Assembly (NCBI RefSeq): GCF_900176145.1
Contig: NZ_FWWY01000001.1
Location: 124,001-188,000 of the forward strand
Direction: 5' to 3'
DNA from: Sulfobacillus thermosulfidooxidans DSM 9293
Lineage (GTDB): Bacteria > Bacillota > Sulfobacillia > Sulfobacillales > Sulfobacillaceae
DNA: 64,000 nt
Positions 15,847 to 39,168 of this stretch are shown one piece after another. How positions within the stretch are numbered: the first letter of the stretch is position 1; the number at the start of each line of letters is the position of its first letter. The translations under genes were made by a program, and so were the position numbers. Under the pieces are notes generated by a model. That model was not told the DNA's origin. It did not search any database and was given only the letters and a program-made list of their open reading frames with translations.

Positions 15847-15963
15847 GTGAAACAATGGTGGAATACCCGGGGACAAAAACTCGTCGCCAAATTGAGAGAT
15901 CCAAAAGGAAACGTCTTTATCGAAAATGGTATCTGGATCATTATCGTAGTGCTCGCGTCGTAG
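15847..15963 (+). pseudogene. 5' fragment of a class III (Flp/TadE-type) prepilin gene, cut by the element
   Basis: GTG start six bases after AAAGGAGGG opens a 38-residue reading frame. Its basic leader ends in KG, followed by NVFIE and a run of hydrophobic residues. That is the class III prepilin pattern, with Gly at -1, Glu at +5 and a membrane helix. The frame stops at TAG in mid-helix, and the serine recombinase gene begins 77 bp further on the opposite strand. The simplest reading is that the element integrated inside this chromosomal gene. The 3' half should lie at the other end of the element, outside the window. Confidence 0.65.
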
Positions 15964-16040
15964 GTGATAATGCGAGAGCCTACGGATCGTCCGAGAAAGA
16001 CTCGTCCCAGGTGGCGCAATGGGATGTGCCAGGGACCGTC
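15930..16040. other. Probable attachment junction (att) of the integrated element
   Basis: Large serine integrases insert next to their own gene at a short core. Here the host-like prepilin frame ends and the integrase 3' end lies within 100 bp. The exact core cannot be set without the right junction. Confidence 0.45.
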
Positions 16041-17578
16041 TACTCGGATGGACGTTGGGCTGCCCCCACGGCCACTGGGCAGACTTCCTCTCCCGCGCTG
16101 CGCCACGTCACCGTAATGTGTCGGCCGGGATGACAGACAATGCGTTCGACCACCGACTGAATCCACGGCCGGGCGGTGGTGACGTCAGCGGTTAATGCCG
16201 CTTCCAATTGCGGAATCAGGGCCGCGACCCGCGCCGCCAGCCGTTGCGGATCGTCCAGTTGCGGCCAAGGCGCATGTAATACGGCTTCGCACTCGGCTTG
16301 TTCTGCGAGCAAGCGGGCTTTCGCCTGCTTATATTCGTCAATCGTATACGCTCCGGCGAGGGCCATCTCCTCGGCACGCGCCAGCATAGCTGGGATCGCC
16401 GCCAGCCGTTGCGCCGCCCGGTGCCGCGCGGCTTGGGCTTGAGCCATCACGGGATCATCCCCTAACCATCGGGCTACCTGCTCGGGCGTCGGAGCGGTTT
16501 GGACTTGCCGGAACTCCTCACGCAAAGCCCCCAAGACGGCGGCATCCAGATCGGCGACCGGGATTTTGGTCGCGGTGGAGCATTGTCCTTTCGTGTGATA
16601 GGCCCGACAACAATAGACCGGGGCCCGGCGACCGTCGGGTTGCCGCCGCCCGGTCCGCACCACCACCATCGAGGCGCCGCACGCCCCACACCGCACCAAC
16701 CCGGAGAACAAATACGGCGAATCATGGGTGCGTCGCCCCAGGCTCTGCCGAATTCGGAGACGATCTTGTGCCCGATTCCACGTCTCCCGATCAATAATCG
16801 CCGGGTGCGTGTCCCGAATGATTTGCGGCGTCTGGCGCCGGACATGCGTGTGCCCCTCCCGATCCGTCTCCTGAATCCATCGTCCATAGATGGTATCCCC
16901 CACATAGGCTTCCCGCCGCAAGAGGCGTTCCACGGTTCGGACATCCCACGTCCCTGTGCGCCCGCGTTGACCGGGAATTCCGGCCGCATTGAGGCGTTGC
17001 GCAATGGCCCGAAACCCCAATTGGTCCTGAAGATACCACTGAAAGATCTGTTGCACTACGGGCGCTTCCTGGGGATCGGGCACCCAGGAATCCCCATGCG
17101 GTCGATAGCCAAACGGCCGTTCTCCATGCCGTTTACCTTGTTTGGCGCGTTCGGCTTGGCCGCCCTTGACTTTGCGGGATAGCTGCCGTCGAAAGTAATG
17201 GGCAAACATTGCCAGCATCATCATTTTGAGTTCACCATCCGGCGTTGTGAGGTCGAGATCGTCTGACACACTGGCAAACCGACAGCCGACGCGCTGCAAT
17301 TCTTCCAAAAACAACATGGTCGATACCATGTCGCGGGTCAACCGATCCAATTCATTGACGACAATGCACTGGATCTGATCCCGTTGCACCCGCGCCAAAA
17401 TCTCGCGCAATTCCCGGCGATTCGATCCGCCGGATTGCACATATTCGACAATATCCACGAGGTCCCAGTGGCGGTCGTGGCAATAAGCCCGAATCCGCGT
17501 GCGCTGGGCGGCAAAACTATAATGGGCATCCGTGGCTTGTTCTTTCGTCGAGACCCGGACGACACCTAAGACTCGCAT
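16040..17578 (-). CDS. Large serine recombinase (integrase)
   Basis: 512 residues. The N-terminal resolvase domain has the nucleophile Ser in VVRVSTKEQ (residue 10) and the later NELDRLTRD motif near 76. The recombinase domain (about 150-260) includes GERPFGYR. A zinc ribbon follows with CGACG near 305 and a second Cys pair about 30 residues later. The C-terminal part (about 370-450) carries charged helices, probably the coiled-coil motif of large integrases. It should catalyse integration and excision of the element. The start has AGGAG eight bases upstream and overlaps the previous gene by 13 nt. Confidence 0.93.
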   Translation of the reverse strand: MRVLGVVRVSTKEQATDAHYSFAAQRTRIRAYCHDRHWDLVDIVEYVQSGGSNRRELREILARVQRDQIQCIVVNELDRLTRDMVSTMLFLEELQRVGCRFASVSDDLDLTTPDGELKMMMLAMFAHYFRRQLSRKVKGGQAERAKQGKRHGERPFGYRPHGDSWVPDPQEAPVVQQIFQWYLQDQLGFRAIAQRLNAAGIPGQRGRTGTWDVRTVERLLRREAYVGDTIYGRWIQETDREGHTHVRRQTPQIIRDTHPAIIDRETWNRAQDRLRIRQSLGRRTHDSPYLFSGLVRCGACGASMVVVRTGRRQPDGRRAPVYCCRAYHTKGQCSTATKIPVADLDAAVLGALREEFRQVQTAPTPEQVARWLGDDPVMAQAQAARHRAAQRLAAIPAMLARAEEMALAGAYTIDEYKQAKARLLAEQAECEAVLHAPWPQLDDPQRLAARVAALIPQLEAALTADVTTARPWIQSVVERIVCHPGRHITVTWRSAGEEVCPVAVGAAQRPSE

Positions 17579-17775
17579 GATGCATTCTCCTCCCCCTGCC
17601 CGGCATTATCGCGAGAACGCGCGTCCGGATCAAGACTGGGGATCGCCATCGGGGATTGTCGGGCGCGGGGCCAGAGCACATCGCGGAGCAACGCGTCCCA
17701 ATACTGATGAGCCTCAGCCCTCGTCAAATGATTGGTACAGTGCACAATGACTGGGAATCGGGATGATGTCGCCAC
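17566..17775 (-). CDS. Small protein coupled to the integrase gene
   Basis: 69 residues, not recognised. The GTG at 17775 is chosen because AAAGGAG lies 11 bases upstream. The longer frame starting at 17835 has no ribosome binding site. It overlaps the integrase start by 13 nt, so the two are probably translationally coupled. It could be a recombination directionality factor or regulator, but nothing in the sequence proves that. Confidence 0.5.
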   Translation of the reverse strand: MATSSRFPVIVHCTNHLTRAEAHQYWDALLRDVLWPRARQSPMAIPSLDPDARSRDNAGQGEENASCES

Positions 17776-17864
17776 GGAAGAATCGACTCCTTTCACACAT
17801 TTCGCCGTGTTGGTGTCTGATCGATCACAGAGCATTTCATCTCAGAACGGCGTCTCGGGAATAC

Positions 17865-17910
17865 GACCACGCCGGGCTCCCGTGCGTACACAGGGAAGAC
17901 CGGCGTGGTC
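17865..17910. repeat. 11-bp perfect inverted repeat with 24-nt loop
   Basis: GACCACGCCGG at 17865-17875 and its exact complement at 17900-17910. It lies between the translocase gene and the integrase unit. No T-run follows on the minus strand, so it is not a clear terminator. It could be an operator or a recombination/transfer site. Confidence 0.6.
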
Positions 17911-17968
17911 AGCTTTTCGGGGCCGTAGGCCGCCTATGCGGTAGCAGTGGATGGACGAGGTTCCGCTA

Positions 17969-19990
17969 TCAGGTGTTTTGTTGATTCTTCCAGGCCTCGA
18001 TAATATAGGTCCAAAGCGATTCTTGCGAAACAATGGGAGCTTGGATGCGAATGGGTTCAGTGGCATCAGCGGGTAGAAATAACGCATCACCTTTCCCCAA
18101 TAGGGTTTCCGCGCCCGGGCGATCCAAAATGACCTGAGAATCTGATGTGGAAGATGTCAGCAGGGCAATGCGAGTGGGCAAATTGGCTTTTAAGGGCGAA
18201 CTAATGATATTGGCTAACGGATGTTGGGTGGCAATCCACAGATAAAACCCGGCTCCTCGGGCTTTTTGCCCTAATCGGCCAATGTTCCGTTCAAACTCTT
18301 TCAGCGTCTCCTTGTCCAGATGGTCCTTGAGATCTTTGTATTCATCGATCACTAACAGACGATAGGGCAAGGATAAGATGCCTCGCTGCCGTGCAGTAAT
18401 TAAATCAGGGACTTTTAATTTGGCAAATTGTTTGTACCGGGTTTCTTGTTCATCGGCCCATTGTGCGACAAGGGCGACAACATCTTCCGGGTCAAGCAAC
18501 ACGGCATCAACATGCGGCATGTGATAAATCCAGGGAAAGGATGATCCCGCTTTGGGATCCACGACCGTAATCCGCAAATCCGACGGAGACATCGTAATCG
18601 TGATACTGGTGAGCATGGAGGAAATAACCGTCGTTTTGCCGCTATTCGTAGACCCTCCAATCAGGCAATGGGGCCATGTGGTAATATCCGACCACACAAC
18701 ACGGCCATTCGGAGTCACGCCCAAACAAATGGGAACCGCCATGCGTTGAATTTTCTGCCGATCATCGGGATCCGTTCGTGCCAACGCCGTCACCAGATCC
18801 ACAAATTGGCGATCCGGACGGGGACGTTCCACGGCAATGACCCCGGGTTCGCCATCCACATAGGTCATGCGCAAAGGCAGATTCCCATGCCCCAATTGCC
18901 CCGCGAGCGTGGCGGATTCCGCCAAAATGCGTTTGGCTAACGCCGCCGGGGGGCGAATCTTGGCGACATCGACCGTGAGACCCCGTTGCCCGCCGATGGC
19001 CTCCACATCAGGGAACCCTAAGTGCGCTAACACCTGCACGACTTCCTGCACCCGGTCCGCGGGAAGCGGCGTCGTCAACAAGGGCAGGGGATTCGGCGCG
19101 GCAGACCGAAGATCCTGCCACGTCAATCCCTGCGCACCCCATCGCGTGGTATCCGATAACCCATCCTGCGTCGTCCGGGAGGCCGGAGAGGGTAAGTCGC
19201 CAGAGACGACCTGTTGGGACGGTCCGTGTTGGGGATCCCGTCCCCGGTGCACCACGCCTTCATCCGAGACCGTCCACGATCCGGGGACTCCCGCGTGATG
19301 CAAAGCGATTTCCGCCCATTGCGTTGCCCATTGCATCCAGGCTTGCATCATCTCCGCATCAAAACCATGGGACCACGCCGGATGGACGCCGCCGCCGTCC
19401 GCGACAATCTGAATCCGGCGCACAGGGCCCCCGTCCGGCCCGGTCATCCAGATGGCGTCGCCCAAACTCCGAGCCAATCCCGCATCCAACACGTGGGCCA
19501 CCGTTTGCCACGTCGGATCGATGCCCGTGGAATTTCCCCCGGCCGTCCATGTCCGATGATACCGGTGAAAGGCTTCCGTCACCCATGATGGCTGATGAGT
19601 CAGCGTACCCAGCACAATCATTGGCCATCGCCAGAGCATCCAGTCCCGCCAGGTCTGGCCGTTGCGAACCGACGCCGGCGTGTGATAGAGCCATGCCAGT
19701 GTCCCGATGAGCACCCACAGGCCGCCGAGTCCCAAGCCCACGCCCCATCCGATGGCTCCCCACGCGATAGGAACATGATGTGAGGGCAACATGACTCCTC
19801 TCAGAGAAGAATGCCGTCCCGGAATCCGTCCCAATGTCCCGGGTGGCCGAGGGACGGAAAACGGTAACGGAGACCACAGGGCGTGCCAGGCCGCCGCGCC
19901 ATTCCACGGCACCGCCGGAACCCAATGATGGATGGCCGCCACATGCCACCCCAACCCGATCATCACCAACAAAATGAGCCACGCCCACAC
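17969..19990 (-). CDS. FtsK/SpoIIIE-type DNA translocase (TcpA-like coupling ATPase)
   Basis: 673 residues. Two or three N-terminal membrane segments (first about 3-20, next near 75-105) precede a cytoplasmic ATPase. Walker A is GGSTNSGKTT near 445, with VVDPKAGSSF soon after, Walker B as LLVIDEYKDL near 550, and the FtsK-type ATQHP motif near 590. Such proteins bring DNA to the transfer channel in Gram-positive conjugative elements, or pump double-stranded DNA themselves in actinomycete elements. GTG at 19990 is preferred: AAGGAGG lies ten bases upstream, while the TTG at 20023 has none. Confidence 0.9.
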   Translation of the reverse strand: MWAWLILLVMIGLGWHVAAIHHWVPAVPWNGAAAWHALWSPLPFSVPRPPGTLGRIPGRHSSLRGVMLPSHHVPIAWGAIGWGVGLGLGGLWVLIGTLAWLYHTPASVRNGQTWRDWMLWRWPMIVLGTLTHQPSWVTEAFHRYHRTWTAGGNSTGIDPTWQTVAHVLDAGLARSLGDAIWMTGPDGGPVRRIQIVADGGGVHPAWSHGFDAEMMQAWMQWATQWAEIALHHAGVPGSWTVSDEGVVHRGRDPQHGPSQQVVSGDLPSPASRTTQDGLSDTTRWGAQGLTWQDLRSAAPNPLPLLTTPLPADRVQEVVQVLAHLGFPDVEAIGGQRGLTVDVAKIRPPAALAKRILAESATLAGQLGHGNLPLRMTYVDGEPGVIAVERPRPDRQFVDLVTALARTDPDDRQKIQRMAVPICLGVTPNGRVVWSDITTWPHCLIGGSTNSGKTTVISSMLTSITITMSPSDLRITVVDPKAGSSFPWIYHMPHVDAVLLDPEDVVALVAQWADEQETRYKQFAKLKVPDLITARQRGILSLPYRLLVIDEYKDLKDHLDKETLKEFERNIGRLGQKARGAGFYLWIATQHPLANIISSPLKANLPTRIALLTSSTSDSQVILDRPGAETLLGKGDALFLPADATEPIRIQAPIVSQESLWTYIIEAWKNQQNT

Positions 19991-20182
19991 GATGGCAACG
20001 CCTCCTTGTTCATCGGGGCTCAACCCGAGCGTCCGCTGACCCTTGGGGATCTATCCTGGGCTGCTAGTCAAAGGCATCCCCGGAACCACCCAGGGCAGAC
20101 GGCACCCTCCGCAAAAGCAAGCGAGATGCCCCTGCATCAGGCATCTCGGCAATTTAACTCGGTTAACCTCGTTACAATGCAG

Positions 20183-20722
20183 TTACAAGTTCCGCAAGTG
20201 AGGCGACCATTGCATCCCTTCCACCAAATCGCGCCAATTCCACCGAACGCGCTGCTCATCCCCAATGAAATCTGGGAGGGCTTGGCGCACACGATGATAC
20301 AAAGTTTCCGGATCCAGTTGAGCCGCAATCATCTCCACATCATGTGAATCGTGCCCAATCCAACGTCCCAACTTACTAATAACCCAATCATACGGATCGA
20401 GCCATCCCACCCGCAAATGCCTAAATTCCCAATTGCTCCATTGAATCCGGTCTTCCCAATCTTCTGGCATCCACATAACACTACCCGCACGAAACGAAAT
20501 GCCAATTTGCTCGGCCATTTGAATCACTTGCTCCGAAGGAACCGAGGAAGTCAACAAAATCCCATCGAGATCATCGGTTTCTCGAATCGTTGTGGGATTA
20601 TAAAACGCTAATGCAGCGCCTCCAACCACAATAATGACCGCCTCAGCATCAGGTGGCCACGCTGAATGACTATCAAGCATTTTAAGAGCCTGATGAACAT
20701 TGTCCTGATTTGTTAAAAACAT
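20183..20722 (-). CDS. Nucleotidyltransferase-fold protein (DUF6036-like)
   Basis: 179 residues. GGAALAFYNPTT followed by ETDDLDG (about 34-54) is the pattern of minimal nucleotidyltransferases, with GG, then a TxDxD metal site. This class occurs in toxin-antitoxin and abortive infection loci. Start has AGGAGAC eight bases upstream. It follows a 194-residue unknown gene after 15 nt and the two probably form one unit. Confidence 0.68.
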   Translation of the reverse strand: MFLTNQDNVHQALKMLDSHSAWPPDAEAVIIVVGGAALAFYNPTTIRETDDLDGILLTSSVPSEQVIQMAEQIGISFRAGSVMWMPEDWEDRIQWSNWEFRHLRVGWLDPYDWVISKLGRWIGHDSHDVEMIAAQLDPETLYHRVRQALPDFIGDEQRVRWNWRDLVEGMQWSPHLRNL

Positions 20723-20737
20723 TTCTTCAAGTCTCCT

Positions 20738-21319
20738 CTAAATCGGTTCGGATCTCTCGATCCCGTTTGTATTCGGGATTAAGGGTCGGCAATCAATCCA
20801 GCCCTGCCCCCATCGTGTTTGAACACGGCCTTTGGCCGCGGCATCGATCGCGACGCGCAGATACATGACCCGGCGTTCGAGGCGCAACCAATCTCGCACC
20901 GGGCGGGATGGCCACTGCACGAGACTTTTCCAAAAGTCCGGCGGCCAAGTGGTCATCAAATAGGATGCGAGAGCCCACGTGGTGTCATTCGCATAATATC
21001 CCCAATGTAACGCCCCCCAAAACCATAACGCTTCCCGAATGGCCACCTGTTCATCGGGGGATGCTACCTCATATCCGGCCAAGACATCCGTGAACACCGC
21101 AGCATCACTCATCAGGAGCCACGGACCTTCCCAGACAGTGATCCGTGGGACAACCTGGGCCATCTGACGCAAGTGGTTCCAGGTCGCGCGGGTCCCGGGC
21201 AACGGGGTGCGCCATTGCTCGTCACGGGTCACCTTCGCAATTTCTTGTCCCATGACTTGGCGTAAGCCCGTTAACGACCAACGCACGGGAATCCATTGAT
21301 AAACATTATTCCCCGACAC
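20738..21319 (-). CDS. Hypothetical partner of the nucleotidyltransferase, 193 aa
   Basis: Not recognised. Trp-rich, mostly helical in appearance. GTG at 21319 is chosen because GGGAGGG lies six bases upstream. Sits 15 nt before the nucleotidyltransferase gene, so a two-gene module is likely. Confidence 0.6.
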   Translation of the reverse strand: MSGNNVYQWIPVRWSLTGLRQVMGQEIAKVTRDEQWRTPLPGTRATWNHLRQMAQVVPRITVWEGPWLLMSDAAVFTDVLAGYEVASPDEQVAIREALWFWGALHWGYYANDTTWALASYLMTTWPPDFWKSLVQWPSRPVRDWLRLERRVMYLRVAIDAAAKGRVQTRWGQGWIDCRPLIPNTNGIERSEPI

Positions 21320-21597
21320 CGCGGTCCCTCCCGATCCTGGTGTTAAGAACGTCACGTTTGAGCTGATTGTATCACGTCCGGCGCCCCCGATGCCTCAGTC
21401 CAATGAACTTGCTCACCGCCGAAACCTGACGGATTGAGGTCCTGGTTCGGCGTCCATTGTGTACTCACCACATCTTACGCCGATCGCTCTAGACGTGGTT
21501 TCGGACTGTTTCGACCCTATTTGCCGAAAAATCTGCTTTCATTTATGTGACGGGATCAGCAGTTCTATTGAAAGGCGAGGATTATCATGCAACAATT
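21320..21597. other. Intergenic stretch, 278 bp
   Basis: AT-richer than the flanks. No supported gene, terminator or repeat seen. Confidence 0.4.
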
Positions 21598-21726
21598 CTA
21601 AAGCTGGTATCGATCTAGCATATCGTCAATTAGCGCATAAGCAATTTTGGCAGTGTCATTGATATTGCGAAAGTCGTCTTTTGTGAGTTGCCAAAAGTAC
21701 TTCGGATTTTCTTCATGGCTCGCCAT
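21598..21726 (-). CDS. Microprotein, 42 aa, last of the MNT unit
   Basis: The ATG shares its A with the TGA stop of the gene before it, a 1-nt overlap typical of coupled translation. The peptide is charged and helical (ending LIDDMLDRYQL). No known family. Its coupling to the 60-residue gene and the nucleotidyltransferase suggests a common function. Confidence 0.55.
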   Translation of the reverse strand: MASHEENPKYFWQLTKDDFRNINDTAKIAYALIDDMLDRYQL

Positions 21727-21908
21727 CATGCTTCATCAATCATCATATTGATCTTATCGGCATTGGGTTTATACGATTCCATAACCTCGATAGCGTCGTT
21801 GTTGTAAATATCACCTTCACGAAAGTCCTCGCCAAATAACGCATAATGAGCAGCGGCCAAACCGAAAAGATGAGCGGCTTTTCGGAGAGAATCCTTACGA
21901 CTAGCCAT
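21726..21908 (-). CDS. Small helical protein, 60 aa, next to the MNT gene
   Basis: Begins ATG GCT AGT inside the 3' end of the nucleotidyltransferase frame (8-nt overlap) and ends on the start of the 42-residue gene. It contains KAAHLFGLAAAHYALFGED, a helix with two His residues. Function unknown. It could be half of a HEPN-like partner, but no complete HEPN motif (RxxxxxH) is present. Confidence 0.5.
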   Translation of the reverse strand: MASRKDSLRKAAHLFGLAAAHYALFGEDFREGDIYNNDAIEVMESYKPNADKINMMIDEA

Positions 21909-22576
21909 GAACGGTAGACTCCAGCATACGATCTCCTGCATTGGCTGTCGAATGGCGCGCTTGCCATATAACCTGTTCGGTCCGCCGCTTCAGAAGGCCC
22001 CCAACGTCTGGCGATTCCATAATGTGTTGAACTTCTCGTGACAGTTTTTGACTATTGGCGGTGCCGTTTAACGTTTGTTCCAGCACAACGAGCCTCTTAG
22101 CCAACTGACGGTATTCCCGCCCATCGTCCCCCCCACGGATCGTCCCACTGTTGCAGATCTTCCAGCTCGACCATGACATCTTGTGCCGCTCCCAGAACAC
22201 TGAGAATCGGGGTGGGAACCGGTTCGCCCAATAGCGTCACATCTCCGAGCACGTACCCAGTTTTCATGATCCAATTCAGCGTAGGGTTGATGAGCCGATT
22301 GGCTCTTGCCCCTTTGATCGAAAGCCAATGCCAATCAACGTCAGGCCACCCCGTCTTTATGGACCGCCTTAATTCGACAATCTCTTGATCCCTCAACGGT
22401 TTGTCCCCGATCAGCATCATGTCATAGTCGCTTGACGGGCGAGGTATTCCATTCCATCGGGAACCATAGCAAATAACGATGCGACAAGAAGGCAATAGCG
22501 CAAGCACATCCGCCAAGCGAATGCGCCACGCCTGGGGAAGGACGTTCAAGTCGCTCAACTGTACTGGTTGACCCAT
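21901..22576 (-). pseudogene. MNT-type nucleotidyltransferase with a frameshift at a G7 run
   Basis: The first frame (22576 to 22097) has the nucleotidyltransferase signature CYGSRWNGIPRPSSDYDMMLI split as GS...SDYD near residues 36-50. After DDPWG a run of seven G residues (plus-strand C run 22128-22134) shifts the frame. Removing one G joins it to a helical C-terminal frame that continues to the TAG at 21901 and overlaps the next start. The full protein would be about 225 residues. Either a sequencing error, a recent mutation, or a slip site that switches expression. Confidence 0.62.
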
Positions 22577-23006
22577 AGGTTATCCGTCCTTTTTGTGACG
22601 CGTTATTAATATAAAGTATAACCCAAACAATGCCTCCTTTGACCTTGATTGCCGAACCGTTGGTCCGCGCTGGCATCCCACCCTTAACCATCCCGTTTTC
22701 CAATCCAATTTAACGTAGGCAAATCAAACATAGACTCCACCATAAGAATTATCCGAATTGGGGAAACATCTGGGAGTTTCTAAATGCAATTGGGGAATGG
22801 TCATCGTAAGGTTAGAACAGACTCGCAAATCATCCCACCCGTCAGCATCAGAACTAGCTGAGAAGTTCTCCTCCGACAAGCTCCCCAATTCCACTTCATG
22901 ATTGATCCCGCAAAACTTTTCAGGCATGGCCCAACATTGGAAGACTTCGGACCATGCCTGAACCACACGGAATAATCGTTACTGGACCACTGGCGAAAAT
23001 GCTGGC

Positions 23007-23525
23007 TTAGAGGTTATCAATGGCCATGTCATGAATAATTTCGACCGTGCGACGATAATGGACATCCCGAGAGCACCGCACTACGAGATCCCATGCCTTT
23101 AAGATCGCGGGATCACGCTGAATCCCTGTATTCCACGTCATCAGCAGTCCCGGATAGGGATGATGAACAACAGCATGCAAAATCTCCGAACCATCACCTT
23201 CGTGATCAATGATCACGTAATCAGGGGATATTGTCTGTACGAGATCGAGAGTAGACATCGTAAGCGGTCCGGTGATGCGCAGATCTCGTGCCCCTGGCAA
23301 CGATGGCCACTCGTTCAGTGGTTGGACAATCACCACCGATTGATCGGGCATCAAACTTTCGTGGAGAAGAGCTCGCAAGAGCGTCGTTTTACCGGTTCCT
23401 GATGATCCAGTCACCAGCAAGCGATGGTGTTGCCGAACATGGGTTACGAGCCGATAGGCCGTCTCTGCGCTTAATATCTGCTGATCCACCAAATCCCACA
23501 TGGATAACGAAACTGTTGTGGTCAT
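23007..23525 (-). CDS. Mini VirB11/TadA-like secretion ATPase
   Basis: 172 residues. RLLVTGSSGTGKTTLLRALL near residue 35 is Walker A. After about 60 residues follows DYVIIDHEGDGSEILHAVVHH, the equivalent of the Walker B region of VirB11/TadA ATPases. The large N-terminal domain of that family is missing, as is the usual second His box. Start at ATG 23525 has GGAGGG nine bases upstream. It may assist the transfer apparatus encoded further right; this is inference. Confidence 0.65.
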   Translation of the reverse strand: MTTTVSLSMWDLVDQQILSAETAYRLVTHVRQHHRLLVTGSSGTGKTTLLRALLHESLMPDQSVVIVQPLNEWPSLPGARDLRITGPLTMSTLDLVQTISPDYVIIDHEGDGSEILHAVVHHPYPGLLMTWNTGIQRDPAILKAWDLVVRCSRDVHYRRTVEIIHDMAIDNL

Positions 23526-23809
23526 CCGAGTGATCCCTCCATTGTTCACTACATTGTCGATAAATCCCAGCCCGGACCATACGGGATTCTTTTTTGAAAC
23601 ATTCGTTATCCCGACGTTCACCGGCCTAAAAAAGCCGAGTCCTACGCGGACTCGGTCTGAACGATGAGCTTTGTGACAATGCTCGATTAAAGATACACTT
23701 CCGCTCCCAAGATTCCGTATGGACTGAACCGTTCGGAGCTTTACGGTACGACAAAGCCTTTAACGCGCCCAATATTTCTCCCTGCTAGAGATAACACAGA
23801 AAATGTTAG
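23526..23809. other. Non-coding gap holding a terminator
   Basis: No supported gene. Contains the hairpin described at 23629-23657. Confidence 0.5.
23629..23657 (-). terminator. Intrinsic terminator
   Basis: On the minus strand ACCGAGTCC, loop GCGTA, GGACTCGGC, then TTTTTT. Ends the transcript of the zinc-ribbon/small-gene run that comes from 24.9 kb. Confidence 0.85.
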
Positions 23810-24040
23810 TCACACTTCCCTCTCACCGTTATGCTCCGCAAAATCAAGTAATGCGGCTTGCGTAGCTTCATACGCTTCCATTACCCAGTTTTTCCACTGT
23901 TCTTCCGTAAACACATATTTGTCAGGATATCGGAATTGACTAGGAAAATCCCCTAGTTCTGGCACATAACCATCGAGATCGGCATATGATAACACATGTT
24001 GGCTATATCCCGGCGGCAGTTGGGTATAAATGAATGCCAT
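23810..24040 (-). CDS. Small hypothetical acidic protein, 76 aa
   Basis: Not recognised. Tyr-rich N-terminus and an acidic helix at the C-terminus. ATG at 24040 follows AAGGATG at seven bases. One of a row of small genes typical of plasmids and phages. Confidence 0.6.
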   Translation of the reverse strand: MAFIYTQLPPGYSQHVLSYADLDGYVPELGDFPSQFRYPDKYVFTEEQWKNWVMEAYEATQAALLDFAEHNGEREV

Positions 24041-24094
24041 GTTCACTCATCCTTCCAGTTTCTTGGATTTTGACGCTGTGAACCTGTTGAACCG

Positions 24095-24217
24095 TTAATT
24101 CTTCTGATCGGAACAAAAATAATACGATGTCTCGTGGTCTGCATACGCATTAGCCCACCCGCTTTCGTACCGGGCGGTAGTATGATGAATAGATGTTCCG
24201 CAAATATGACATACCAT
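24095..24217 (-). CDS. Small zinc-finger-like protein, 40 aa
   Basis: Starts MVCHICGTS with a CxxC pair and ends with a Cys in YYFCSDQ, so one metal site is plausible. Start follows GGGGGA closely. Function unknown. Confidence 0.5.
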   Translation of the reverse strand: MVCHICGTSIHHTTARYESGWANAYADHETSYYFCSDQKN

Positions 24218-24255
24218 TTTATCCCCCAGGATCCTAAGCATTTTCGATGGGATAC

Positions 24256-24471
24256 TCAGTCCCCGTACAGTTCCGGCATCTCCTGACGGCATGCGTCACA
24301 CACTAAATCGCCTAGGGCATCGGATTCTCCGTGGGCCTCACAAACATACTTGTGACAGACCACACACACCGCATCGGGGTCTCCGTGGATCTCACAAAAA
24401 GACTTGATACAGACCCCACACTGATAGATCCCGGGCCGCCGACAGCGCCAACATTGTAGCATCTCGTCCAT
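24256..24471 (-). CDS. Cys-rich zinc-binding protein, 71 aa
   Basis: Four CxxC-type pairs: CWRC, CGVC, CVVC and CDAC, with interspersed His (FCEIHGD, CEAHGE). This gives two B-box or treble-clef like zinc sites in tandem. GGAGGAG lies six bases before ATG. Probably a nucleic-acid or protein adaptor; no direct evidence. Confidence 0.7.
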   Translation of the reverse strand: MDEMLQCWRCRRPGIYQCGVCIKSFCEIHGDPDAVCVVCHKYVCEAHGESDALGDLVCDACRQEMPELYGD

Positions 24472-24514
24472 GATGTCTCCTCCGTTCCCCCAACACGCGG
24501 GTCATCTTCGGCGT

Positions 24515-24676
24515 CTAATGGTCTTCCTCATACCCATCAAACCACACGACTTGCCCTTGCTCGTCAATCTTATGCGTATCCTCTCGCCGGCAATGCGCTT
24601 GCGCGTCCTCTAGCGTTAATCCCCGTTGAATGACGCGCCGATGCCCATCCCGATAAAAGCGCACGATCCGATACAT
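24515..24676 (-). CDS. Microprotein of the [11 protein letters not shown] type, 53 aa
   Basis: GGGAGGT eight bases before ATG. Contains [21 protein letters not shown] followed by a segment ending in [10 protein letters not shown] degraded relative with the same core ([15 protein letters not shown]) lies at 55096-55260. Small proteins like this are common on mobile elements; function unknown. Confidence 0.72.
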
Positions 24677-24725
24677 CTGGATCGACCTCCCGTAAAGACA
24701 TGATTGCGGGCCATGACGCCCATAA

Positions 24726-24755
24726 AAATCCCCACCTTCTTAACCGAAGGCGGGG
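24726..24755 (-). terminator. Intrinsic terminator
   Basis: Minus strand CCCCGCCTTC, loop, GAAGGTGGGG, then ATTTTT. It follows the 44-residue gene at 24799. Confidence 0.75.
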
Positions 24756-24798
24756 GACGACGGGGGGCATATGCCAAGGAGTGGCCGGCTCAGAGTCT

Positions 24799-24933
24799 TC
24801 AACAGGAATATTGATTTCCGTTAAGGCGGAATAGGTCGGCGGCACGCCACAGGCTTTTTGCGCCCACCCCCCAGTCCACCGTCCGCAGAAAGGGCGTGCG
24901 TGGTTGGGCGATGGAAAACAGGATGACACTCAT
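24799..24933 (-). CDS. Microprotein, 44 aa
   Basis: AAGGAGAGG ends six bases before ATG, a strong ribosome binding site. The peptide starts MSVILFSIAQPRTPFLRTV. No known family. It lies divergent to the AbrB operon. Confidence 0.5.
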   Translation of the reverse strand: MSVILFSIAQPRTPFLRTVDWGVGAKSLWRAADLFRLNGNQYSC

Positions 24934-25043
24934 AGCACACCTCTCCTTTGTCAGATATTTACGTTTGCTGAGGGATCCTCGGCTTCCCATTCGGCATTCG
25001 ATCTCCCACAATGACCGGATTTTTCAGGCATTCCCCCAGGTTC

Positions 25044-25072
25044 TTGCTTGTGATTGGCACACATGATACAAT
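25044..25072 (+). promoter_or_regulatory. Promoter of the AbrB/ParB-like/GMK-like operon
   Basis: TTGCTT (25044-25049) and TACAAT (25067-25072) with 17-nt spacing. The only plus-strand operon in this part of the element starts 55 bp downstream. Confidence 0.55.
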
Positions 25073-25127
25073 AAACAATCATGATAGTTCTGAGTATCAG
25101 GATAATGATGCCCGGAGGGATGCAGAT

Positions 25128-25316
25128 ATGATAACCGTGACTACACGGGTAAATGGCCCGCGTTATCAAACAACCGTTCCACGGGCCATCCGGGAAAAAT
25201 TACACATTGATCGAGGGTCCGTTCTGATATGGACGATTCAATCTGACGGTCACGTGATCGTTTCGACCCTTCCCGAAGATTTTTCGATACCGTTCGAGAA
25301 GGAGTCTTCCTCATGA
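25128..25316 (+). CDS. AbrB/MazE-type (SpoVT-AbrB) DNA-binding protein
   Basis: 62 residues. A swapped-hairpin domain with the family pattern TTRVNGPRYQTTVPRAIREKL followed by RGSVLIW is clear. Start at ATG 25128 follows GGAGGG at eight bases. Such proteins act as antitoxins or transition regulators and usually repress their own operon. Ends with an ATGA overlap on the next gene. Confidence 0.85.
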   Translation: MITVTTRVNGPRYQTTVPRAIREKLHIDRGSVLIWTIQSDGHVIVSTLPEDFSIPFEKESSS

Positions 25317-25633
25317 AATGGATTGATCCTCGTCAACTGATCCCTACTCAAGAATTAGCGACTATGATTGGGCAAATTCGTACACTGGTTCCGATTATGC
25401 AAGAACATGGATATGATGTGTCATTTCCGATTGAGGTACTGGAATTTCAAAATCGTTATTATGTTTTGGAGGGTCATCATCGGTTGGCTGCCGCAATGTT
25501 ATTGGGCATTAACCCCGTACCGATTGTCACGCGAGCCGATCTGCCTGGAAACATGCCCCCAGACATCTTTGTTCAGGATATTCCCGTTTCAGCACGGTAT
25601 GATTTTGAAGAACTATGGGGAAAAGAATTATGA
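25313..25633 (+). CDS. ParB/sulfiredoxin-fold protein
   Basis: 106 residues. EGHHRLAAAMLLG near residue 50 is the ParB N-terminal nucleotide-binding motif (GxxHR). No HTH or C-terminal ParB part follows. Stand-alone ParB/Srx domains can be nucleases, CTPases or kinases. It overlaps the genes on both sides by 4 nt, so translation is coupled. Confidence 0.75.
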   Translation: MKWIDPRQLIPTQELATMIGQIRTLVPIMQEHGYDVSFPIEVLEFQNRYYVLEGHHRLAAAMLLGINPVPIVTRADLPGNMPPDIFVQDIPVSARYDFEELWGKEL

Positions 25634-26196
25634 AAGGACATATTTTTATCCTGATAGGCCCTAGCGGAGCAGGTAAAACGACTTTAGCGAACACCCTTCA
25701 TCAGGAAGGATTGGCCCATCGCATCGTGACATGGACAACACGATCCCCTCGACCGGGCGAAGCGCCTGGACGAGATTACATTTTTGTAACTCCAGGGCAA
25801 TTTGACGCAGCCTTTCATCAAGGGGACTTATTAGAGCGTGAATATCTTTACGGAACATGGTACGGGACCCCCATTCAAGCATTATCGGATGCTTTGCATC
25901 AAAATCACATTGTTCTTATCTCTATGGGACTTCAAGGCGCTCGAACTATCAAACAACGCTGGCCATCCCAGTCAACTATCGTGGCCGTACTCCCCCCCAA
26001 TCCAGAAACCTTGTATCAACGTTTACTCAATCGTGGGATTTCCGATCACGATTTAGCTGTACGATGGCCGGTTATGCAGCAAGAAGTGAACGAAGCCCAA
26101 CAATTGGCAGATTATCTTATTATAAATGATGCTCTGCCTCGTGCAATTGCTGAACTCAAACACATTATTTCACAACAAACCTCTAAGATCCTTTAA
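25630..26196 (+). CDS. Guanylate-kinase-like protein
   Basis: 188 residues. Walker A IGPSGAGKTTLA at residues 9-20, then TTRSPRPGEAPGRDY (about 37-51), which matches the GMP-binding loop of guanylate kinase. YLYGTWYGTP near 75 is also typical. The housekeeping enzyme is usually about 200 residues, so this is near full length. In a mobile cassette it may act on a modified nucleotide or oligo end rather than in GTP synthesis. Confidence 0.85.
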   Translation: MKGHIFILIGPSGAGKTTLANTLHQEGLAHRIVTWTTRSPRPGEAPGRDYIFVTPGQFDAAFHQGDLLEREYLYGTWYGTPIQALSDALHQNHIVLISMGLQGARTIKQRWPSQSTIVAVLPPNPETLYQRLLNRGISDHDLAVRWPVMQQEVNEAQQLADYLIINDALPRAIAELKHIISQQTSKIL

Positions 26197-26520
26197 TCGT
26201 CTTTTTGGCCTCTTCTTTTTGTTGATCCAAAGCGTGCAAAAGTTGTTCGGCACTCTCCGGCGAGGAGGCATTGACGTTCTCCCCAGCGCTAAAGCGCGGG
26301 GATTCTTTCTCGCTCTGCGCGAGCTACGCGGACGTGCTGGTGGGGATGCCACTGCACGCCCGTGGGGGACGCCATCGCCCCAACTACGGGGCCGAAGCCC
26401 CGATACTTGGATGGCTGCACCCTCCGCGAACGGGGTGGAGCTTAAGGATATTCTATCACAACCGGGCGGCTTATCCCCAGCGCTCAAGCGCGGGGCTTGC
26501 GCCGCCGGGGTTTCGGTCAT
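26183..26520 (-). pseudogene. Microgene interrupted by an IS200/IS605-type relic
   Basis: AGGAGGGG lies six bases before ATG 26520, which overlaps the stop of the P-loop kinase. Only MTET can be read before the GC-rich insertion. On the far side a coherent tail, ESAEQLLHALDQQKEE... to TAG at 26183, resumes. The intact gene would have coded for about 35-40 residues with a charged helix. Confidence 0.5.
26271..26512 (-). mobile_element. Palindrome-ended IS200/IS605 (TnpB) relic, about 240 bp
   Basis: Two nearly identical hairpins, CCCCAGCGCTAAAGCGCGGGG at 26281-26301 and one with a single change at 26475-26495, bound the insert. Read on the minus strand, the last part encodes ESPRFSAGENVN, like the C-terminus of many TnpB proteins, followed by the hairpin and GTCAA. 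No intact transposase or nuclease remains. The TnpB guide-RNA scaffold normally overlaps this end, so a fossil RNA may be retained. Confidence 0.6.
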
Positions 26521-27032
26521 TTTATACCCCTCCTACAGCGACTAATAATCAAATCGACCACATCCTCAACGGGCATCGTCGCCGTATTGACCTGTAAATC
26601 CGTCGGCCACGGCAAGGGGACCGCCGCGCTATCGTACCGCAGAAACCTTTCCAACAAGTCCGCCGCCGTGTCCTGATACGGCCAATATCCCTCATTCCCC
26701 GTCTGACGAACCGAAAATCGTTGCCGCAACACCGTGACGGGGGCGGTTAGCCACACGCGGAAGACATACCGAGGGGCATGGCGTTCCCAGGCGACAAGTT
26801 CTCGCCAATTCAGCCCCGTGGACACCCAAATTCCGGTCCGCCCGGGAATGAGGAACGGTGAATCCCATGCACGCCAGAGACGTGGCACCACCTCGGCCCA
26901 CACGCGATCCTCATCCTGCACCGTGTTGCGCAAGCGGCCGACGGAGACGACGGGCCATCCCGCGCGCGCTTGCATCGCGTGGGCCGTCGTGGTTTTGCCC
27001 GCTCCGAGATTGCCACAGAGATGGACAATCAT
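26517..27032 (-). CDS. P-loop NTPase / small-molecule kinase-like protein
   Basis: 171 residues. It begins MIVHLCGNLGAGKTTTAHAM, a Walker A of the shikimate/adenylate kinase class. A lid-like Arg segment (VLRQRFSVRQTG, about 105-116) follows. GGAAGGG lies seven bases before ATG. Substrate unknown. Confidence 0.75.
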   Translation of the reverse strand: MIVHLCGNLGAGKTTTAHAMQARAGWPVVSVGRLRNTVQDEDRVWAEVVPRLWRAWDSPFLIPGRTGIWVSTGLNWRELVAWERHAPRYVFRVWLTAPVTVLRQRFSVRQTGNEGYWPYQDTAADLLERFLRYDSAAVPLPWPTDLQVNTATMPVEDVVDLIISRCRRGIK

Positions 27033-27138
27033 GCACCGACCCTTCCTTTACGAAACGTGCTCACGATTGTGGGCTGATCACCGGATTGATCAGGTTCCAA
27101 ATCATCCGGTATGGAATATCCGAGCCGGTCGTGACGGC

Positions 27139-27375
27139 TTATAAGGTTCCCGGCTTTCCGAGTGTCCAACTCCAGTGACGATACTCTGGAAACGTCTCGC
27201 GTGTTGCGTGCGCCAGAGCGGTGATTGCCTCGGGCACCATTGTTCCAGCCCGCAACCGCACGTCCAAAAAGATCCAATGATGATCCAGATCGAGCCATAT
27301 CTGTCGGCCCCCTAACTCACAATACGAATCTAAGATCACGTGCAAATTGGATGGGATATCGATACGAATTATCAT
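27139..27375 (-). CDS. Hypothetical protein, 78 aa
   Basis: Not recognised. AGGGG eight bases before ATG. A compact mixed sequence with WLDLDHHWIFLDVRL, likely a small beta-rich fold. Confidence 0.55.
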   Translation of the reverse strand: MIIRIDIPSNLHVILDSYCELGGRQIWLDLDHHWIFLDVRLRAGTMVPEAITALAHATRETFPEYRHWSWTLGKPGTL

Positions 27376-27483
27376 CTTTAAGTCCCCTCAAACACCGCTT
27401 CGCAAAACAAAACCCCGACGGCCCGCCGTAAACGATGTCAGTGAGCGTGCCTTCGGGTAACACCTACTTTTACAGTACATGAT

Positions 27484-27765
27484 TTATGAGTCCATCAACT
27501 GGTGAATGGTAATGGGTTTGCTTTCCACATAGAGAACACCCGGATCCACATCCAAACCATTCGGCCAGACAATCGAAATCTGGTCCTCGTCAACTTGGAC
27601 TTGCCGAAAGAATGCCCATTGTTTCAGAGGCTCAAACAATTCCCCGCTCCGCTCAACCTCCGCACGGAAATCCGCGATCCGATATTCCCCTGTGTCAAAC
27701 TCTAACAACAGGTAAGTCGGATAGATCGGAAACACCCGTTGAACCCGATGGATCGGAGGATGCAT
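27484..27765 (-). CDS. DUF2442-type protein
   Basis: 93 residues. YLLLEFDTGEYRIADFRAEV near residue 18 and VDEDQISIVWPNGLDVDPGVLY near 58 match the DUF2442 pattern. This family is usually found next to DUF4160, as here (14 nt downstream of it). The pair is thought to be a toxin-antitoxin-like unit; that is family context, not shown here. Confidence 0.75.
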   Translation of the reverse strand: MHPPIHRVQRVFPIYPTYLLLEFDTGEYRIADFRAEVERSGELFEPLKQWAFFRQVQVDEDQISIVWPNGLDVDPGVLYVESKPITIHQLMDS

Positions 27766-27779
27766 ATCAATCACCTCAT

Positions 27780-28034
27780 TTAATCCTGAATCCACGGCGG
27801 CATGTGTCCATTGCGGACCGCAGTCCACGCTCTCAAGACATCTTCGCGATGAACGGCTAACCACCGTTGCACTTCACGCAATGTTTTGCCGGGGAGTTGC
27901 CCTTCTAAAAGCTCGCCCGTCATAATATTGATTGATACTGACTGTCCCGCCTTACGTAAGTGAAAGTGAGGCAACGAATGATCTTTTCCATAAATATACG
28001 CCCGCCAACCCATAATCTCGGCAAACGGCGGCAT
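27780..28034 (-). CDS. DUF4160-type protein
   Basis: 84 residues. GWRAYIYGKDHSLPHFHLR near the N-terminus is the DUF4160 signature (KDH..PHFH). The second half matches a WL/REVxRW helix. GAGGTG eight bases before ATG. Forms a unit with the DUF2442 gene. Confidence 0.78.
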   Translation of the reverse strand: MPPFAEIMGWRAYIYGKDHSLPHFHLRKAGQSVSINIMTGELLEGQLPGKTLREVQRWLAVHREDVLRAWTAVRNGHMPPWIQD

Positions 28035-28375
28035 CGAAACTTCACCTCTATTATAGAACTCATAACCCCATATGATTCATCACTAGCGATGTCATGAGGA
28101 CTTGATTCTAAAAAGTCGATAGATCCTTACGGTGTTCGGGGTCGTCATCATCAACTGCTCCGCCGCCGCTCCGCACAATAAAAAACCGAAGACCCTTTGC
28201 CAGAGACTTCTCGCGAATGCCTTCGGTTGACACTCTCAAGACCTGCCTGAACAGTCAAGACATGTACGCATGAGCTATCTTTGTTAGCGGCTTTTGTATT
28301 CTTGCGGATCGATCACCACGGAGTCTTTTCGCTCCGAGAGATCGATGCCCCCACGTCTCGTATCCAGCCTGTTCG
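28035..28375. other. Gap of 340 bp with a terminator
   Basis: No supported gene. Contains the hairpin at 28181-28228. Confidence 0.5.
28178..28228 (-). terminator. Intrinsic terminator
   Basis: Minus strand AACCGAAG and CTTCGGTT arms followed by TTTTATT. The loop is long (about 29 nt) and may fold further. It ends the transcript of the zinc-ribbon gene at 28376. Confidence 0.65.
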
Positions 28376-28579
28376 TTATTCGGCTCGAAGACTGCGCCGG
28401 TGACTCACCCACTCGTCCATCAGCGAATCGATGCAATCCCCGCACACGCCATCCCAGGCATGGATCGGCTCCCCTTGACCGGATGCGTGCGGAAAGGTTG
28501 TGTTGTGCGAGACGACAATCGCGTAGGCCTGTTCGTCTTCACGCATCACGTGACCGCACAATGCACACCGATAATGCAA
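28376..28579 (-). CDS. Small zinc-ribbon protein, 67 aa
   Basis: CALCGHV near the start and CGDC near residue 50 make a four-Cys zinc ribbon. TTG at 28579 is preferred because GGAGG lies eight bases upstream; the GTG at 28588 overlaps that site. Function unknown. Confidence 0.6.
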   Translation of the reverse strand: MHYRCALCGHVMREDEQAYAIVVSHNTTFPHASGQGEPIHAWDGVCGDCIDSLMDEWVSHRRSLRAE

Positions 28580-28775
28580 CGCCCTCACCTCCTTGCCTTC
28601 GCAGGCATCACAGCGCGGCTTTCACTCCGTAACGCGCCACCGCCGACGCGCTGTTCAGGACGAGCACGTCCTGCCCACCTGATCGGAGCCCAGCGCCGCC
28701 AGACCAAGACGGATCATGGCCCGAGCGTTTACAAGTACCGACCTTTAAGCCGAGGAAATTGACAGATGGCGGCAA

Positions 28776-29627
28776 CTAGGCCGCCAAAGCCGCCCCCGCT
28801 TCTTCCAGCAAGGCATCGAGTTCTCCCACGAGGGAATCCGACGCGACTCCCGGCGTGCTGGCGACGGTCGGAAAGAAGTTGGGCAAGCTGGATGGCAACG
28901 CCAATTCCATCTGCCAGGTCGCCACATGCCGCATGGTGGCCACCACTTGATCAACGTATCCGGTCATGGTGAGTCCGGCATTAGCGGCATCGCACGCGGC
29001 AAAGCCTAGTCCGCCCGGACAAGGCACTACCGCGAGGGCAGGCGCCGCGACGGACCATGGGGCATCATAGCTAACCCGTGGCGTCACAAAGCCCGTCCCT
29101 CCATAATATGCGGCCGTCGCCAAGAGCCAATTGCCCGTCGCCTGTTTGTTTTCTGCGAGCAGTTCCGCTCCCAAGATGAGGTTTTCGCCCGGATTCGCGC
29201 GCGCCCCAGGATACCACCCCGGCAGACTTTGCGCCGTGCTCGGAATAATCTGCATGAGGCCGTAGGCGCCGGCGGGCGACCCGGCATTGGGCACACCGCC
29301 CGACTCATGCAACATGATTGCGGCAATGAGGATCGGAGGCACTTTCGTTTGTTGCGCCGCAATGAGAATGTCCGGCCACCAGCGAAACACCCGTTCTTCC
29401 GCATTGGCGGGGAGCGTAAAAGGCGCCGTGGCGGACGTTTGGAGGGCCTCCTGTTCTTGAAAACCCTGCCACCATTGCGCGGACGGCATGGCTTGCACAA
29501 AGAGCCACGGTAAGAGCATCAACGCCACCACGAGGATCACGCGCCCCCATCGACTCGGATGGGAACGCCATCGCATTCCTACTCCGAACCCCGCCGTCGT
29601 CTGCCGAACCGTGATCTTACGGAGCAT
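28776..29627 (-). CDS. Lytic transglycosylase (VirB1-like)
   Basis: 283 residues. A membrane anchor (about 28-46) precedes an SLT domain with the catalytic Glu in IMLHESGG (about 105), AYGLMQIIPSTA and later AAYYGG. This locally opens peptidoglycan for the transfer channel. Its start overlaps the stop of the gene before it (TAATG). The C-terminal 80 residues are Pro/Ala rich and unrecognised. Confidence 0.88.
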   Translation of the reverse strand: MLRKITVRQTTAGFGVGMRWRSHPSRWGRVILVVALMLLPWLFVQAMPSAQWWQGFQEQEALQTSATAPFTLPANAEERVFRWWPDILIAAQQTKVPPILIAAIMLHESGGVPNAGSPAGAYGLMQIIPSTAQSLPGWYPGARANPGENLILGAELLAENKQATGNWLLATAAYYGGTGFVTPRVSYDAPWSVAAPALAVVPCPGGLGFAACDAANAGLTMTGYVDQVVATMRHVATWQMELALPSSLPNFFPTVASTPGVASDSLVGELDALLEEAGAALAA

Positions 29628-29827
29628 TAGGGTCGGCCCCCTTCGGGGGGTTCTACCATCACAGACCAGACGACGCGCCAATCCGTGGCGGGGAATCCGT
29701 GTTGCTGGAGCCAGGTGCGAATCGCGTCTTGTCCCCCGGTCACGATGGACACAGGCACGGGCACCATGACCATAAGGCCGTGGGCATCAGGCGTCCACAC
29801 GCCGACACGGGATTCGGTCTCGGCCAT
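29627..29827 (-). CDS. Small hypothetical protein between VirB4 and the transglycosylase
   Basis: 66 residues, not recognised. AAGGAG lies 11 bases before ATG 29827. Linked to the transglycosylase by a TAATG overlap. Confidence 0.5.
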   Translation of the reverse strand: MAETESRVGVWTPDAHGLMVMVPVPVSIVTGGQDAIRTWLQQHGFPATDWRVVWSVMVEPPEGGRP

Positions 29828-29853
29828 CACGATGATCACTCCTTTTGACTGGA

Positions 29854-31746: not shown

Positions 31747-31772
31747 TGGATGATGCCTCCTTTCTCCTCGCC

Positions 31773-32624
31773 TTAGCGGATCGACGGTCCTTGCCGTCGA
31801 ATCACGACGGGCCCTTGAACCCGTTCCAAGGCGACCGCCTGCCATTGTGCATAATCCGCCCCGGGATGGCCCAGCCCCTGCAACATCCGTTCGGCGGCGG
31901 ATGCACTGAGCCAGTGCCACGTGCCCGGTCCCGCTAAACTCTGCCACGTTTGTTCGGCCGCGAGCAAGTGTGGCACCGCCTCATCCCGGTGCGTTCCCGG
32001 CACGCTGAGCCGCACCCACACGCCCGAGGCAATACTTTTGGCCGCGACGCGCTCAATCCACCATTGCCATCGGCGCCGCAACACCGGCGGGAGGTGCGGA
32101 GGCGGTACGTCCCGCATCCCCGGGCCTTGCACGCTCCCAATCTCCACCGTACATCGATGCCACGCCGCTGTCCGCACCACTGTCGCCAATCGCCGATGCC
32201 AAGCGTCCAGATCCTCCGGATCGAGAAAGGCCACGGGTGGGATGGTGAGCCAGGCCATCGCCCACACGCGATCTCCCATGACCCAAAAGGGGTCCTCCCG
32301 TTGATAGGCTGGCACCGACCAGCCGCCACCTGGCCACGTAGCCCATTGCCGAGGACGCCGCCGAAATTGCCGACGGATAGCCCACTGATGGGGGCCGTCG
32401 ATAGCCCCCCACGCCATTAGTCCCCCCGTGCCGATCAGCCCCATCATCAGCGCGGGGGTCGTCCAGCCGATTGCACTCCCTACGAGTAGCGCGATCACCA
32501 ACGCGACACTTCCGATACCCAAAAACGTGATGAACTGTCCCCACGTCAGATGCCCAATGAGATGGGCATCCACTCGCGGGTCGAGATCCGGAATGTCCAG
32601 CGGCGTTAACGGATCGTCGGCCAT
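31773..32624 (-). CDS. PrgI-like (VirB3-type) membrane protein
   Basis: 283 residues. Two close membrane helices (about 30-50 and 55-75) follow an N-terminal segment with DIPDLDPRVDAHL and GHLTWGQF, the hallmark of PrgI/VirB3 proteins. A longer soluble C-terminal domain (about 100-283) is added, as in SCO6880-type proteins. Acts with VirB4 at the inner face of the channel. Confidence 0.75.
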   Translation of the reverse strand: MADDPLTPLDIPDLDPRVDAHLIGHLTWGQFITFLGIGSVALVIALLVGSAIGWTTPALMMGLIGTGGLMAWGAIDGPHQWAIRRQFRRRPRQWATWPGGGWSVPAYQREDPFWVMGDRVWAMAWLTIPPVAFLDPEDLDAWHRRLATVVRTAAWHRCTVEIGSVQGPGMRDVPPPHLPPVLRRRWQWWIERVAAKSIASGVWVRLSVPGTHRDEAVPHLLAAEQTWQSLAGPGTWHWLSASAAERMLQGLGHPGADYAQWQAVALERVQGPVVIRRQGPSIR

Positions 32625-32667
32625 CTCCCATCAGTCCTTTCGTCCGATATCCAAGTGATCGGTGCGT

Positions 32668-34797: not shown

Positions 34798-34823
34798 GAT
34801 AGTCCTCCTTGATTCGGCCCGCG

Positions 34824-37025: not shown

Positions 37026-37040
37026 TGATCGGTCACCTCT

Positions 37041-39163: not shown

Positions 39164-39168
39164 CCTCT

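Follow-up and report, generated by a model that had tools for sequence, protein, structure and literature searches.

A prepilin gene is split by an integrated element

A 154,854-bp integrative conjugative (plasmid-like) element has very probably (probability about 0.93) split a 64-codon prepilin gene by means of its own integrase, at what appears to be a preferred docking site. The window, i.e., the whole stretch of 64,000 nucleotides analysed, corresponds to C1:124001-188000 of Sulfobacillus thermosulfidooxidans DSM 9293 (genome G000; 3.86 Mb, two contigs). The features at the junctions are as follows:

15847..15963, + strand: 5' half of the class III prepilin gene (33 native codons, continued by codons that the element supplies, up to TAG)
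15946..15947: attL core GT, positions 1 and 2 of codon 34
15948..64000: left 48 kb of the element, the remainder lying beyond the window, to C1:294799
15953..15963, - strand: attP arm, 11-bp inverted repeat CTACGACGCGA, with its partner at L053:6784 (attR)
16040..17578, - strand: large serine integrase, 512 aa (Resolvase, Recombinase, Zn_ribbon_recom)
C1:294800-294801 (window numbering 170800): attR core GT, beyond the window, pairing with the attL core

The 5' half starts with GTG at 15847 on the + strand behind AAAGGAGG and reads through 38 codons, VKQWWNTRGQKLVAKLRDPKGNVFIENGIWIIIVVLAS, to the stop codon TAG at 15961-15963. Its leader (K-G|NVFIE followed by a hydrophobic helix) shows the class III prepilin pattern, and its native codons end at the core, at codon 33; the frame is thereby broken in mid-helix, where the intact relatives run on with ...IIIVVLAMILPIEALRNALVGAFNQITSNLNSIP. 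The GC content is 47-49% in the left flank and climbs to 57% where the junction lies, and 77 bases separate the stop codon from that of the opposite-strand serine integrase, which itself lies ~94 bp from the GT core. The original prediction started from just such a prepilin-type frame ending in mid-helix beside a serine integrase, and this frame is indeed present (GTG 15847 to TAG 15963); its end had been placed at 16040, which is the stop of the integrase on the - strand, the frame itself ending at 15963 and the exchange point lying at 15946-15947.

A 28-aa C-terminal query taken from the relatives gave a single match in the same genome, at C1:294809-294892 on the same strand (E = 2.1e-12), within a right half that spans C1:294794-294892, placing the missing half 155 kb downstream of the 5' half on the same contig and strand. 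The alignment of this right half with the full protein starts at codon 32-34, GT is common to both halves, and the attL and attR cores lie 154,854 bp apart. Joining the outer ends yields VKQWWNTRGQKLVAKLRDPKGNVFIENGIWIIIVVLAMILPIEALRNALVGAFNQITSNLNAIP, a single frame encoding a 64-aa prepilin, and joining the inner ends rebuilds an attP with perfect 11-bp arms and 13 of 17 positions symmetric about GT. Of 200,000 GT pairs drawn at random from the same 179 kb, 3 were equally symmetric, a chance figure to be relaxed about tenfold because the core was picked by eye among a few shared dinucleotides. The right flank, on which the original prediction was to be tested, therefore carries the prepilin frame onward from C1:294800, and relatives lacking the element possess one continuous gene of 63-64 codons; both observations bear out the proposed insertion inside a chromosomal prepilin gene. 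The element shows the following features of the large serine integrase type: an integrase with Resolvase, Recombinase, and zinc-ribbon domains at its end, attL and attR with a common short core, a dinucleotide-symmetric attP, and an empty attB in the relatives. With skin-type elements it shares the in-frame split of a gene that rejoining restores.

Viewed alone, a truncated 38-aa frame would look the same if it were a pseudogene decayed by chance beside the element or a fragment brought in by it. This reading has a negligible chance of being right: the complementary half begins at the same dinucleotide 155 kb away, ~90 bp 5' of the prepilin start align with the intact relatives (window 15757-15956 against G007 and others), and the mature codons are unmutated. 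A 38-codon frame followed by the same stop, the outcome that would have refuted the original prediction, was not seen in the relatives, the gene being full-length in 22 of the 34 genomes searched in the window's family.

According to the proposed mechanism, the large serine integrase would have recombined the element into codon 34 of the 64-codon class III prepilin gene, which heads a pilin/TadE-like/Tad-like operon. The insertion cuts the TadE-like and Tad-like genes downstream off from the half that is next to the promoter, and plausibly switches off the pilin. If the element excised with the help of a directionality factor, the gene would be restored, the pilin presumably being off with the element in place and on once the element leaves. 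The surroundings add a complication. In the intact relatives, the operon is oriented toward the neighbouring gene at 14436-15164, which we take from its reading to be a 6-phosphogluconolactonase (sugar-phosphate) gene, whereas the 5' half in G000 and G003 has the opposite orientation, facing away from this gene, so that an inversion outside the element must be assumed. Past the operon end, G000 carries an IS and then a stretch whose counterpart in G003 belongs to another contig.

The split gene encodes a Tad-type prepilin

Alignment of the intact copies (n = 18) revealed 27 invariant columns, including GNVFIENGIWII. The intact 64-aa protein matched nothing in Pfam (0 families at E up to 1) or NCBIfam, and it was therefore assigned as a prepilin from its K/E-G|NVFIE cleavage pattern, its helix, and its gene neighbours. 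The protein has the short charged leader, the G|xxxxE motif, the hydrophobic helix, and the TadE neighbour of class III (Tad-type) prepilins. It resembles the Flp/Fap pilins (PF04964) in being a short prepilin with G|xxxxE and a hydrophobic helix that adjoins a TadE-like gene, but differs from them in lacking any Pfam or NCBIfam match, and membership of the Flp/Fap family itself was ruled out by the absent model match. A profile search with the intact pilins against solved structures gave nothing useful, with one match at E = 1.6.

The restored prepilin is followed downstream by TadE-like and Tad-like genes, the gene 3' of the C half matching TadE at 23.3 bits (cut-off 22.9). In the homologous operons, TadE scored 21.6 bits in G013 and 26.6 bits in G019, and the Tad-like matches were weak. 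The prepilin operon is thus Tad-type, though it is not the main Tad operon of the host, which has a separate locus with CpaB, MinD, CpaF, and TadB-like genes at C1:2085-2089 kb and its own Flp-type pilin. Comparison of both halves between G000 and G003 uncovered nine synonymous and no non-synonymous differing codons in the mature part (codons 21-64), and two synonymous and four non-synonymous ones in the leader (codons 1-20). The excess of synonymous changes in the mature codons therefore indicates that the prepilin was under selection until recently.

Element genes resemble a plasmid conjugation backbone

Besides the integrase, the following genes were assigned in the part of the element within the window:

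17969..20023, - strand: FtsK/SpoIIIE-type ATPase, a relative of which adjoins the different integrase of the G003 element
28776..29681, - strand: lytic transglycosylase (SLT), by domain match
29854..31947, - strand: VirB4/TraG-type P-loop ATPase for conjugation (TraG_P-loop/DUF87 match)
38480..39163, - strand: SAF-domain protein, CpaB-like, by domain match
42645..43469, - strand: TadC-like protein (T2SSF, below the Pfam cut-off)
43891..44814, - strand: TadB-like protein, by position and reading only, the Pfam match being absent
44727..46046, - strand: TadA/CpaF-like ATPase (T2SSE)
46071..47567, - strand: MinD/ParA-type ATPase, TadZ-like (Pfam)
47968..48933, - strand: actin-like protein of plasmid-segregation type (ALP_N, MreB-like_C)

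According to PMC6803676, plasmids pL15 and pY0017 and a plasmid-like region of S. thermotolerans Kr1 share a common conjugation backbone of MinD-, CpaF/TadA-, and TadB/TadC-like proteins, StbA, relaxase, TraG, and a VirB4-like protein. The element resembles pL15, pY0017, and the 83-kb Kr1 region in its MinD-, TadA-, TadB/C-, and actin/StbA-like genes, in a putative VirB4-like gene, and in a GC content above that of the chromosome, and the Kr1 region is likewise integrated in the chromosome (PMC6803676). It differs from them in its length of 154.9 kb and in having been inserted into a pilin gene by a serine integrase; the prepilin gene of Kr1 is intact, whereas that of G000 is split. No mention of an integrase, a recombinase, or a pilin was found in the text of PMC6803676. 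At the protein level, the TadA/CpaF-like ATPase belongs to this backbone, with pL15 and pY0017 the two best plasmids among the matches listed (36.6 and 37.6%, respectively). The MinD-like and StbA/actin-like proteins were assigned to the backbone by their Pfam matches; for the putative VirB4-like ATPase, with its TraG_P-loop/DUF87 match, the 12 plasmid records listed (of 35) include neither pL15 nor pY0017. No relaxase family was detected among the 31 element proteins scanned, which are a minority of the element genes.

The original prediction went further and held that the element, by inserting here, would shut off the host pilus and supply its own Tad pilus. The CpaB-, TadA-, TadC-, and MinD-like genes in the element would fit such a replacement, but a motif scan that recovered the known pilins as a control found no class III prepilin in the element; a stricter scan found nothing, and another found one implausible frame at region position 122687. 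Furthermore, the Tad-type genes are the ones that make up the conjugation backbone in Sulfobacillus plasmids (PMC6803676), and Tad genes at this site are known from the window's element alone. This part of the prediction was accordingly given up as very improbable, the replacement pilus being ruled out for want of an element-encoded prepilin in the motif scans.

In the remaining element, the right end (L053:1-6415, C1:288001-294415) encodes an ApeA-type HEPN protein (PDC-S58 and Cas13-ApeA models) and a type III restriction-modification pair. The interior contains transposases, a UvrD helicase, a LexA-like repressor, and others, together with a 1114-aa ResIII-type helicase (L050:13450-16791) that has a HINT/intein-like stretch inside its helicase domain. 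Beyond the window the element comprises five 20-kb blocks; two of them were compared with 12 relatives for core-genome content, and the matches were IS copies and patches, plus a 3.9-kb stretch 84% identical to Kr1. In addition, two RRXRR proteins were observed within the window (49283-50725 and 51851-53071), one of them with an HNH domain.

Elements have entered the same gene repeatedly in the family

To survey the gene, the 64-aa protein was compared with 101 genomes, 34 of them in the window's family, and matches above E 1e-3 were dropped. On the authors' reading, the prepilin is full-length in 22 of the 34 family genomes, five of which (G001, G002, G017, G018, and G045) also hold half copies, and only halves occur in seven (G000, G003, G005, G006, G021, G023, and G024). 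As for the rest, G010 has the first 28 codons only, two genomes gave weak matches only, and two gave none. A DNA search with window positions 14900-15970 against 41 genomes gave matches in 22, many of which stop near window position 15957; at the matching loci, the gene runs on to its 63-64 codons. In G007, G001, and G004, the upstream flank is joined to the downstream TadE/Tad genes through one intact pilin.

In nine of the 34 genomes, half-pilins that run into foreign DNA were firmly identified, the break lying at either of two cores spaced 12 bp from each other. Base-level alignment placed the class 1 cuts at the GT core in codon 34 (G000, G021, and G024) and the class 2 cuts at a TG core in codon 30, 12 bp upstream (G003 and G023; G001, G002, G005, and G017). 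The class 2 arms are of the AATCACACGATGA type in G003 and G023 and of the CCTTACGCGATCA type in G001, G002, G005, and G017; in the sequence stretches examined, the arms were found at the halves and not elsewhere, save for scattered one-mismatch matches. Three further genomes are probably cut, namely G045 (degraded) and G006 and G018 (contig ends only), and the half-like copies of G010 (first 28 codons only), G025, and G029 were left uncounted. Symmetry about the TG core reached 18 of 20 positions in G003, 17 of 20 in G023, and 18 of 20 in G005, with the frame restored on rejoining in each. Overall, the rejoined frame encodes a 64-aa pilin in four of the five genomes in which both halves were found (G000, G003, G005, and, with its upstream codons, G023); in the fifth, G024, the C half is frame-damaged and the core symmetry is only 7 of 20.

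An integrase lies directly beside a half in five genomes (G000, G021, G024, G003, and G023). Identity to the window's integrase is 71% in G021, 45% in G024, and 29-30% in G003 and G023, and the latter two are 57% identical to each other; compared by sequence, the integrases beside the cuts thus fall into two diverged lineages. Beside the CCTTACGCGATCA-type halves (class 2b: G001, G002, G005, and G017), no integrase was detected in the stretches examined, where the contigs partly end, and G005 has an integrase of the G003 kind on another contig. The G021 integrase (L071:2816-4432) adjoins the C half and that of G000 the N half, a reversed layout. Three of eight class 1 integrases sit in the pilin gene (G000, G021, and G024; the others number five to six). 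No pilin half was found near the class 1 integrases of L098, L099, and L101-L104 (48-52% identical) in the stretches examined, so targeting of the pilin gene does not hold for the clade at large; L105 (26% identical) was excluded from the class 1 group. At L104, in S. thermotolerans Kr1, a 52%-identical integrase is located at the edge of the published plasmid-like region, and, as the Kr1 prepilin is intact, this integrase must use another site. Among viral contigs, no relative of the window integrase was found and the pilin DNA pattern was unmatched.

The best NCBIfam match of the window integrase was XisF, the recombinase of the fdxN element (NF041201, 163 bits). XisF excises a gene-splitting element. 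Membership of the XisF family was ruled out, the score lying far below the cut-off of 375 bits.

In G003, patches similar to the window element keep their order when followed from the pilin half of that genome (C1:607-582 kb and ~517 kb), and the two FtsK proteins are ~63% identical; by these resemblances, the gene in G003 is occupied by a relative of the window element that has another integrase. The halves of G003 lie 478 kb apart (C1:192671-671397; L055, L056, and L142), which is too far for a window-type element alone. Its 400-420 kb block (20 kb sampled) matches the second contig of G000 rather than the core genome and looks accessory. The G003 insert may therefore be a larger cointegrate of a relative of the window element with DNA like the second contig of G000.

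Probable coexistence of occupied and empty alleles in draft genomes

The contig ends of three drafts bear on whether both states of the site occur together. In G002, the contig with the intact gene (C118) and that with the C half and a class 2 arm (C187) have a common end base and identical last 127 bases, and their last 203 bases contain one mismatch, 128 bases from the common end, as expected if both enter one node of a 127-base assembly graph. In G006, the two contigs with N halves (C66 and C27) stop at the same TGGA, beyond which attL and attB no longer agree, and a near-identical contig of G005 (99.8% over 13.5 kb) runs on from there into attL. In G018, C40 starts exactly at the GT core, and 141 identical bases overlap the end of the intact-gene contig. 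We infer that these ends, which fall at the predicted cores, are branch points of the assembly graphs, which suggests that occupied and empty alleles coexist in the three draft samples; more broadly, occupied and empty states appear to coexist in several sampled populations.

A mixture of strains is enough to explain the contig-end pattern. That the half copies in drafts with a full copy reflect binning or strain mixtures, and no biological switch, is somewhat favoured, given that full and half copies occur together in G001, G002, G017, G018, and G045 and that the contig ends in G006 and G002 are shared or diverged, as is typical of mixed populations. A mixture is nevertheless compatible with the main claim, since occupied and empty strains side by side are the expected look of a polymorphic site, and it weakens any claim of excision within a strain.

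A proposed docking site, ranked above a selected switch

The element resembles SP-beta in spsM (PMC4191935), gin in gerE (PMC5595907), and skin in sigK in that it lies inside a coding gene, its precise excision would restore the frame, and a site-specific recombinase is present. Unlike these three, whose targets are sporulation genes, it occupies a Tad-type prepilin gene, is of conjugative type, and is only predicted to excise. By analogy with them, the interruption could be a programmed or selected switch, in which regulated excision phase-varies the pilin. This would accord with the exact restoration of the frame at the core, the recurrence of the gene as a target, the two states suggested by the contig ends in three drafts, and the nine synonymous and no non-synonymous codon differences, which imply a gene functional until recently or still; a recent insertion, however, accounts equally well for this purifying pattern. 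The C half of G002 contains a stop codon absent from its intact copy and that of G024 is damaged, so interrupted copies also decay; the N half of G045 is likewise degraded. As the switch further depends on a postulated excision, regulator, and directionality factor, it is considered distinctly unlikely. A bolder reading would make the Tad-type prepilin gene a reversible switch at which different elements dock, with several integrase lineages converged on the same 12-bp stretch, populations carrying both alleles, and conjugative elements toggling the pilin as they come and go; it is tentative and rather unlikely.

Docking at a conserved, dispensable gene is our main reading and is ranked above the selected switch: the gene would offer the elements a safe place to dock, since the sequence around codons 21-39 is nearly invariant and loss of the gene is tolerated, and the on/off effect would be a consequence and not the purpose.

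Splitting by removable elements has mainly been described for sporulation, heterocyst, and competence genes. Here, the split gene is that of a surface pilin, and elements whose integrases have diverged cut it at two cores separated by 12 bp. In the literature searched on Sulfobacillus integrative elements, Tad/Flp pili, and pilin-targeting recombinases (subscription journals and preprints lying outside the search), the site is undescribed. It can now be asked whether conjugative elements control a host surface structure by occupying its gene, and also whether a conserved sequence that codes for a helix just happens to be ideal for landing. Moreover, integrases from heat- and acid-tolerant hosts with predicted attP/attB pairs are testable tools.

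A second interrupted pilin was observed in the host. The Flp-type pilin of the main Tad locus is broken by an IS (L145:5160-6860, G000:C1 ~2083.2-2084.9 kb) with a DDE transposase and terminal repeats agreeing at 17 of 18 bases, and its counterpart in G003 is intact (93%). With the prepilin split by the element and the Flp-type pilin broken by the IS, both Tad pilin genes of G000 are thus interrupted.
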